This document shows, piece by piece, positions 763 through 3,316 of a stretch of DNA of 5,147 nt; position 1 is the first letter of the stretch; every line of letters begins with the position of its first letter. The stretch lies in NCBI GenBank assembly GCA_016209155.1, contig JACQWU010000308.1:1-5147 (forward strand). The letters run 5' to 3'. Made by a program: the position numbers and the translations under genes. This stretch comes from Candidatus Desantisiibacteriota bacterium (lineage in GTDB: Bacteria; JACRDZ01). Below the pieces are notes generated by a model, which saw only the letters and a program-made list of their open reading frames with translations, had not been told where the DNA came from and searched no databases.

Positions 763-1707
763 TCATATTCCCATTTTTACATTAACAGCATTAACCAAAA
801 GAGGAATCATTATTTCATGATAACCGCAGAAATAATATCCTTTTCCTCCATATGCGGTAGGTCTTGAAAGAACATTTACTTCCGGACGATAATGTCTTAT
901 CATATCAAAATTTGCCGCGGTAAATTTGTTTATTTTAATACCAAGATTTCTGGTTATTGTAATAGCTTTTAAAAATACCTCGGGCAGCATTACCGATGAA
1001 CCGAAATTAATTACTACACCGCCTTCTAAATTTACAAGGCAGGAAGCAAAAGTCTTAAAATCAATATATGATGCCTCTCCAAGAACTTTCCCTTCCGCTT
1101 TCGGATGCTGATGAATAATATCAGTACCAATAGCAATATGGACAGTTACAGGGATATTATATTTTACTCCGGCAAAAAGAATGCTCATTTCCCTGTAAGG
1201 ATATTTATCTTTGCAAATTTTTTCACCAAGAGCTTTTCCCGCACCTAATCCTTTTTTTACACCGCTTTTAAGAGCATTATTAATATTAAAGCCTGTTTCT
1301 TCTGCCATTCCAAAGCTGCCATCTTCCAAATTATGTGCAACATCCTCTGATGTGCCGCCAATCATTGCTATCTCAAAATCATGAATAGCTCCTGCTCCGT
1401 TTAAAGCAACACAACTTAATATTCCATTCTTCATCAAATCTATGATGAGCGGACTTAATCCGCATTTAATGACATGTGCTCCCATCATAAAAATAACAGA
1501 TCTTCTATTTTTATGTGCATGAACTATATCCGCTACAAGCTGACGAAAATTTTCACCTGCAAAAATATAAGGTAATGAATCAATAAATTCCTGAAAAGAA
1601 GGATTTATACCGCAGACTTTTGAAAAATCCTTTACTGATGTTTTATTTTTTCGATCTTTTATCGGATAAGTTTTTATTTTAGAAAAATCAAGCATTTTTG
1701 TTTCCAT
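763..1707 (-). CDS. Deoxyhypusine synthase-fold family protein, function unknown
   Basis: This 314-residue cytoplasmic protein has no signal or membrane segment. It resembles the deoxyhypusine synthase (DHS) fold, an NAD-dependent aminobutyl-transferase family. Visible blocks are GAHVIKCGLSP (76-86), ALNGAGAIHDFE (101-112, where DHS has TAGGVEEDF), GGTSEDV (117-123), FGMAEETG (132-139), HIAIGTDIIHQHP (190-202), EGGVVINFGSSVMLPEVF (228-245, where DHS has GGGVVKHH), RHYRPEVNV (271-279), and RP-6-K ending at K289, followed by IPLLV (301-305). K289 falls where human DHS has its catalytic Lys329 (WGKI, then FPLLV). The KHH motif and the Glu of VEED are not kept. Most bacteria lack eIF5A, so true hypusine formation is unlikely. 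A related polyamine or NAD-dependent reaction, such as homospermidine synthesis, is possible but unproven. The start has AGGAG (1712-1716) 4 bases upstream. It lies 14 bases after the DUF3108 stop and 14 bases before the flippase, so it is operonic. Fold moderately sure; activity unknown. Confidence 0.75.
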   Translation of the reverse strand: METKMLDFSKIKTYPIKDRKNKTSVKDFSKVCGINPSFQEFIDSLPYIFAGENFRQLVADIVHAHKNRRSVIFMMGAHVIKCGLSPLIIDLMKNGILSCVALNGAGAIHDFEIAMIGGTSEDVAHNLEDGSFGMAEETGFNINNALKSGVKKGLGAGKALGEKICKDKYPYREMSILFAGVKYNIPVTVHIAIGTDIIHQHPKAEGKVLGEASYIDFKTFASCLVNLEGGVVINFGSSVMLPEVFLKAITITRNLGIKINKFTAANFDMIRHYRPEVNVLSRPTAYGGKGYYFCGYHEIMIPLLVNAVNVKMGI

Positions 1708-2117
1708 AATTCTCCTATATATTATTTATATTCGACCAATTGAATCGCTACTGCTCCTATCAAAACACCGCTTCTTATTAATACCGGTATTTTTTTATCA
1801 TCATCCGTTACCCAAACAAAAAATTCACCTTTATGCTTAAATAATCCGCTTGCCCCCAGTACTTTAGGTTCAATTTTAAAAGTATTGAAAGTTCCTGCTG
1901 GGACACGAATTTGTTCTTTTTTTATTACTTTGATTACCAGTTTAAAAACTTTTTCTCCGTCAAAAATATCAAAAGAAATATCTTTCCCGACTTCCATAGG
2001 GAGATTACGGAAATGATAGATTGCCGAGAAAGGGTCCTGAATAAATTTTGGTATTTTATACTTTTTATTTTTACGAATAGCCTCTCCATTTACATAATCA
2101 AATTTAATTATTTTTCG

Positions 2118-2120
2118 CTA
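2118..2120 (-). other. In-frame amber codon inside the DUF3108 gene
   Basis: TAG replaces codon 119, in context ATT TAG CGA. It sits between EGNF and IIKFDY, at a variable polar position as I recall the family pattern. One substitution from AAG, CAG or TCG would produce it. The five complete frames here end in TGA (HDOD, DHS-like, SurE) or TAA (DUF3108, Pcm); none uses TAG. Confidence 0.85.
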
Positions 2121-2152
2121 AATGAAATTCCCCTCATTAAGATCTTTATCAT

Positions 2153-2169
2153 AAAAAAAAAAAAAAAAA
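2153..2169 (-). repeat. 17-base poly-T tract within the DUF3108 coding sequence
   Basis: Seventeen consecutive A on the plus strand read as T17 on the coding strand and encode most of the FFFFF stretch (residues 103-107). It is by far the longest homopolymer in the window; the next longest noticed is A10 at 3527-3536. At this length the downstream frame is correct, since the family spacing between VDQENF and YDKDLNEG is kept. Such tracts are prone to slippage in replication and to sequencing length errors. Confidence 0.9.
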
Positions 2170-2473
2170 TTTTCCTGATCAACTAAACTTATTATTTTAT
2201 CACGAACAGGATAAAAAAAAGACACATACTTTGAAGAAGTTGTTTCAGTAATGAGTTTATAATATTTTTCATTATTATTCAAGGTTGTATCATCTATTTT
2301 CATAACAGAATCACCGGCATAGAAATTCAACCAGGTTATTTTGTATATCATGCATTCCCCTACACGTATTGCGGATCTATCTGCTGCTGCAAAGATCTCT
2401 TTTTTTGAAAATATAATAAAAAAAAAGAGGTGTAAAATAAAAAGGATTTTTTGTAGGTTCGAAAATGGTATCA

Positions 2474-3316
2474 TCAATTAATATCCATCCAATCCGCTCG
2501 TAAGGACTCATTTTCATTCAGTATTTCCTGCAAACTAAAAACTATATTTTCTTTTTTTCTGTCATCAATTTCCGTTATTTTAAGAATATCATGTTTAATA
2601 GAATTATGACAAGAGTTAATTCCAAAACCAATTCCAAGCCTATTGCAAACAACATCCGCAAAAACCACAATAGACACCAATTTAGAATTATAACAAGACT
2701 CAGATGGATTATGATGAAAAGCAATTACATCTATAAGACTTAATGGAAGTCCCCAGTACTCCGCTACTTTCCTGCCTATTTCAATATGTGTAGTATTAAA
2801 TAAGGACTTTTCAGCTTCAAGAAAAGATATTTTATTTTTCATTACTTTTTTAACTATTTTAGAAAAATGTTCGGGGAAATACTGTGCAAGTATCATTTCC
2901 CCAAAATCATGTATTAAACCTGCCGTATAAGCGATTTCTCCCATCTCTTCGTCAATCTCTTGTGCAATAATTCTGCTTAAATAAGCAGAAGCAATAGCAT
3001 GTTCCCAAATAAATCCTTCATATGGGGAATAACTGCGGATATGCGCATTAGGAAAAGAATTTATCAATGCTTTTTGAATATTTTCAGCGCCCAGAAAAGT
3101 GCAGGCTTTATCAATAGAATCAATTTTTTCAAAAGACTTGAAAAAATTGTTGGCATAATTTAAAAGTGATAATGTTATCGCGGGATCTATAGAAATCACT
3201 TCTGCCATATCGTGTAAATCTACTGTTGGATAATTAAACAATTCCTGCATTTTATTTGCCGAATCAGGAAGAGGAGTCAGACATTCAATCTTCTTAATTC
3301 CTTCTAATATTTCCAT
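2474..3316 (-). CDS. HDOD-domain (HD-related output domain) protein
   Basis: This 280-residue soluble protein is a stand-alone HDOD domain, a signalling-output relative of HD phosphohydrolases. Residues about 8-200 carry the family pattern: LTPLPDSANKMQELF (13-27), a helical section with ISIDPAITLSLLNYAN (41-56), the IDSIDKACTFLGAENIQ block (65-81), then WEHAIASAYLS (104-114), TAGLIHDFGEMIL (131-143), THIEIGRKVAEYWGLP (176-191) and IAFHHNP (198-204). A possible metal set is retained: H106, H136-D137, H177, H201/H202 and D221. The usual Lys after HDxG in HD-GYP enzymes is Glu140. No receiver or sensor domain is attached. The start ATG at 3314-3316 has AGGAG (3324-3328) 7 bases upstream, and a strong promoter lies just beyond. 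It is the first gene of the minus-strand operon and its stop overlaps the DUF3108 start by one base. Family assignment is firm; whether it is an enzyme or a binding module is unknown. Confidence 0.9.
   Translation of the reverse strand: MEILEGIKKIECLTPLPDSANKMQELFNYPTVDLHDMAEVISIDPAITLSLLNYANNFFKSFEKIDSIDKACTFLGAENIQKALINSFPNAHIRSYSPYEGFIWEHAIASAYLSRIIAQEIDEEMGEIAYTAGLIHDFGEMILAQYFPEHFSKIVKKVMKNKISFLEAEKSLFNTTHIEIGRKVAEYWGLPLSLIDVIAFHHNPSESCYNSKLVSIVVFADVVCNRLGIGFGINSCHNSIKHDILKITEIDDRKKENIVFSLQEILNENESLRADWMDIN

Follow-up and report, generated by a model that had tools for sequence, protein, structure and literature searches.

A lone in-frame TAG in a DUF3108 family gene: nonsense mutation, sequence error or recoding?

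A reading frame that stays open on both sides of a single stop codon can be interpreted in more than one way. In the window, the whole stretch of DNA that was analysed (5147 bases, the entire contig 237 of its genome), an otherwise unremarkable, putative cell-envelope gene of the DUF3108 family is interrupted by one TAG. Has this gene been broken by a mutation, is the codon an error of the sequence, or is TAG decoded as an amino acid in this organism? The initial annotation had raised all three readings. As will be discussed below, a nonsense mutation and a base-call error are both viable, while a recoded or suppressed TAG does not agree with how the genome uses this codon. The source genome is a 3.08 Mb draft in 352 contigs that is 78.8% complete and 2.3% contaminated.

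The interrupted frame and its homologs

The DUF3108 frame runs on the minus strand from an ATG at 2474-2472 to a terminal TAA at 1722, and comprises an N-terminal segment that resembles a signal peptide by eye, followed by the DUF3108 domain. The gene, its stop and its surroundings are laid out as follows:

1722..2474, minus strand: DUF3108 family gene of 250 codons with one internal TAG; the Pfam PF11306 match spans the stop
2118..2120, minus strand: in-frame TAG, codon 119 counted from the ATG and the sole internal stop of the frame
2153..2169: homopolymer of 17 A at a distance of 32 nt from the TAG; in the gene it is T17 and encodes FFFFF
2474..3316, minus strand: HDOD domain gene directly upstream, whose stop shares one base with the start of the DUF3108 gene (TGATG)
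763..1707, minus strand: GSU2086 family gene directly downstream (NCBIfam NF052581), without a Pfam match

Is this one coding frame? With the stop translated as X, residues 45-247 align to positions 2-208 of the 209 in the Pfam DUF3108 profile (PF11306) with an E-value of 4.9e-34, and the score of 118.4 bits against a gathering cut-off of 26 places the gene in the family. The codon-usage score is 0.33 before the TAG and 0.41 after it (genome median 0.41, 5th percentile 0.23), and on both sides a coding bias is seen in the DUF3108 frame only. Given the local composition, chance alone would keep the 131 codons that follow the TAG open with a probability of about 5e-6. The normal coding bias on either side, this long open stretch and the near-full-length domain match thus confirm that a single internal TAG lies in a coding DUF3108 frame and is no chance effect. 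This bears out the initial annotation, which had placed the TAG at codon 119 within a DUF3108 frame of 250 codons and described that frame as intact before and after it. An Rfam scan of the window gave no RNA element match at the TAG site, and a PDB sequence search gave no match.

Homologs of the gene occur in 27 of 60 genomes, the source genome being one of the 60, and only the window copy among these DUF3108 members carries an internal stop; the homologs of 26 other genomes are free of one. The alignment at codon 119 that the initial annotation had proposed contains K, R, D, A, G, S, F or Q at the TAG column, with K in two genomes of the same phylum (L037 and L040) that also share the downstream GSU2086 family gene. 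Homologs are therefore intact at the position of the TAG, as would be expected for a nonsense pseudogene. Since the column is variable and polar, the alignment gives no sign of a special residue at this site. The nearest relatives among the genomes compared are three of the same phylum; a scan of a genome collection with the PCMT gene of the window retrieved no close relative of the species.

The gene order around the locus is also shared. DUF3108 is followed by the GSU2086 family gene in L037, L040 and a further genome (L035), and more generally the two families adjoin each other in several genomes, a linkage conserved within the phylum. In the window the GSU2086 gene starts 14 bases past the end of the DUF3108 gene, and an effect of the TAG on this downstream gene is possible.

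TAG as a stop codon in the source genome

How is TAG used elsewhere in this genome? Ends of non-overlapping ORFs of at least 100 amino acids were counted on 100 contigs, which represent 0.94 of the 3.08 Mb. Among the 742 ends sampled, TAA accounts for 452, TGA for 173 and TAG for 117 (16%). After TAA the next in-frame stop follows at a median of 8 codons, after TGA and TAG at a median of 7 each, and by this similarly short distance the sequence after TAG is as non-coding as that after TAA. Several conserved proteins end in TAG where their family ends: the family match reaches residue 476 of 478 in GatA, 459 of 461 in CdhE, 247 of 249 in LarB and 211 of 215 in thiamine diphosphokinase. The source genome uses TAG as an ordinary stop codon. 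The earlier suggestion that the window can do without TAG as a terminator is correct for its five complete frames, which end in TGA, TAA, TGA, TGA and TAA, yet so small a set cannot show that TAG is unused, and genome-wide the suggestion fails.

The termination machinery fits this usage. RF1 and RF2 are both encoded, each exceeding the curated cut-off of the NCBIfam model for that factor, and RF1 (prfA) has neither lost nor altered its decoding motif RVPVTEGSGRIHTS (PVT) or its catalytic GGQ. For prfC (RF3) the genome has no match over cut-off. A whole-genome search with tRNA models gave 30 matches, namely 29 tRNAs and one tmRNA; none of the 29 has a CUA anticodon, in an assembly that is 79% complete and so holds an incomplete tRNA set. 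ARAGORN run on 100 contigs (0.94 Mb) likewise found no CUA tRNA. PylS (TIGR02367) has no match in the genome, and the eight matches to PylB, none over the curated cut-off, are probably general radical SAM proteins. The evidence from terminators speaks against recoding independently of the absence of a suppressor tRNA. Frequent TAG ends, the presence of RF1 and a search of this incomplete assembly for a CUA tRNA that finds none are precisely the observations that the initial annotation itself had named as arguing against its proposal of a recoded, rare or suppressed TAG; with PylS also absent, we reject it.

RF1 of this genome is short. It has 313 amino acids compared with 353-384 in nearly all RF1 proteins compared, and relative to RF1 of 20 other genomes some 47 residues of its domain 1 are missing without a shift of the frame (L001:1012-1953; G000:C117). 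Domain 1 is neither the decoding nor the catalytic part of the protein. The gap is either a real deletion or an assembly collapse.

Mutation, error or readthrough

We favour a real and ordinary nonsense mutation over a sequence error, with a probability of about 0.6. What supports it is that conserved genes of this genome end in TAG, that RF1 is encoded and that the homologs are intact. One point change would have created the premature TAG inside the DUF3108 gene, and translation would then stop after 118 residues; as the truncation falls inside the DUF3108 domain, the product is probably inactive. If the change was recent, this would account for the remainder of the frame still being open. 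The figure covers the whole reading, including the presence of the TAG in the cells, which we infer rather than read off the sequence; it is a judgement, as is the weight given to error below. Against this reading stand the nearby run of 17 A, which lends plausibility to a local error of the sequence or the assembly, and the incomplete state of the genome (79%) and with it of the tRNA set.

The competing view that deserves most attention, less probable than mutation but by no means negligible, is that the TAG arose by base-calling, assembly or strain mixing, while the cells carry an intact gene. Runs of at least 17 A are rare (4 elsewhere, in the 0.94 Mb sampled), and one such run lies 32 nt from the stop, at a place where relatives have, over an equal length, a mixed sequence rich in Leu and Pro. 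Such a run could mark a poorly resolved part of the assembly or a gene already drifting. The assembly is moreover a draft in 352 contigs with 2.3% contamination, in which further conserved genes carry stops or frame breaks. Yet the run has left the frame unshifted, with both sides aligning to the family at the same length, and a substitution 32 nt from a homopolymer is not typical of homopolymer errors; the association between run and stop was also spotted post hoc. A frame error at the run itself is not supported, as the family match continues in a single frame, and at the expected length, from one side to the other.

Could the cells instead make use of the stop? That a suppressor tRNA or a weak RF1 lets TAG be usefully read through to a full-length protein is highly improbable. 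A second conserved gene with an in-frame TAG, the missing domain 1 residues of RF1 and the roughly 20% of the genome that is missing and might contain a tRNA are in its favour; but general suppression would be costly where TAG ends 16% of the sampled genes, neither a CUA tRNA nor PylS was found, the PVT and GGQ motifs of RF1 are intact, and interruptions by TAA and TGA exist as well. A shade less probable still is the milder idea that a shortened RF1, with no RF3 found, weakens termination at TAG, so that the premature TAGs in the DUF3108 and polyketide synthase genes would undergo partial readthrough and be tolerated better than stops of the other kinds. We give even less credence to a gene in two functional pieces, the second restarting at a later start such as the ATG at 1997, where a 91-residue ORF begins: the break falls within one domain, and the 40 codons between TAG and this ATG are coding-like, although a genuine split would not require this. 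No split homolog is among those found, so that a functional split gene was rejected. Least probable of all is genome-wide reassignment of TAG to an amino acid. Nothing but the open frame past the TAG speaks for it, and it is refuted by terminator usage with more stops soon after TAG, by RF1, and by conserved proteins that stop at TAG where their family ends.

The locus may also be compared with known systems. In some crAss-like phages TAG codes for Gln (code 15; PMC9523058). An in-frame TAG in a conserved gene is common to such reassignment and to our locus, whereas here TAG is often the genuine end of a gene, RF1 is encoded and the searches yielded no suppressor tRNA. Pyrrolysine insertion offers another likeness, an in-frame TAG alongside a retained RF1; it was rejected on the absence of PylS. 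PylB is also below cut-off, and DUF3108 is not a known pyrrolysine protein. An ordinary nonsense pseudogene, on the other hand, likewise has one premature stop, a conserved open frame, intact homologs and standard termination, and differs only in that the base is known here from the assembly alone. Draft genomes commonly contain single genes with a premature stop, and the significance of the interrupted DUF3108 gene is slight as it stands. The lesson is rather that a lone in-frame TAG should be weighed against genome-wide TAG use before recoding is proposed. Were readthrough true after all, attention would turn to the shortened RF1.

Other interrupted genes in the assembly

Is the DUF3108 gene alone in being interrupted? 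Internal stops in about 110 domain matches of four large families comprise one TAG, two TAA and one TGA, and there is no preference for in-frame TAG over TAA or TGA at conserved columns of many genes. Most same-frame ORF pairs flanking a stop resembled neighbouring genes with start codons of their own. As other genes are also broken by TAA, TGA or a frame break, TAG is not special in this respect, and the several kinds of interruption imply that both nonsense changes and sequence errors occur in the assembly.

Individual cases are varied. A very large polyketide synthase (L129:1555-4557; G000:C43) has a TAG directly before the HGTGT of a ketosynthase domain, a second in-frame TAG in a conserved gene, and elsewhere a ketosynthase is split across two frames (G000:C124:200-864). 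Response-regulator matches contain TGA and TAA at G000:C90:8414-8677 and a TAA at G000:C143:7591-7863. A single frame holds DHH, DHHA1 and CBS domains, with DHH separated from DHHA1 by a TAA (L084:1832-3313; G000:C62); this is probably another interrupted gene. Apart from these, a single ORF of 4731 amino acids ends in TAG (L090:1844-16039; G000:C349).
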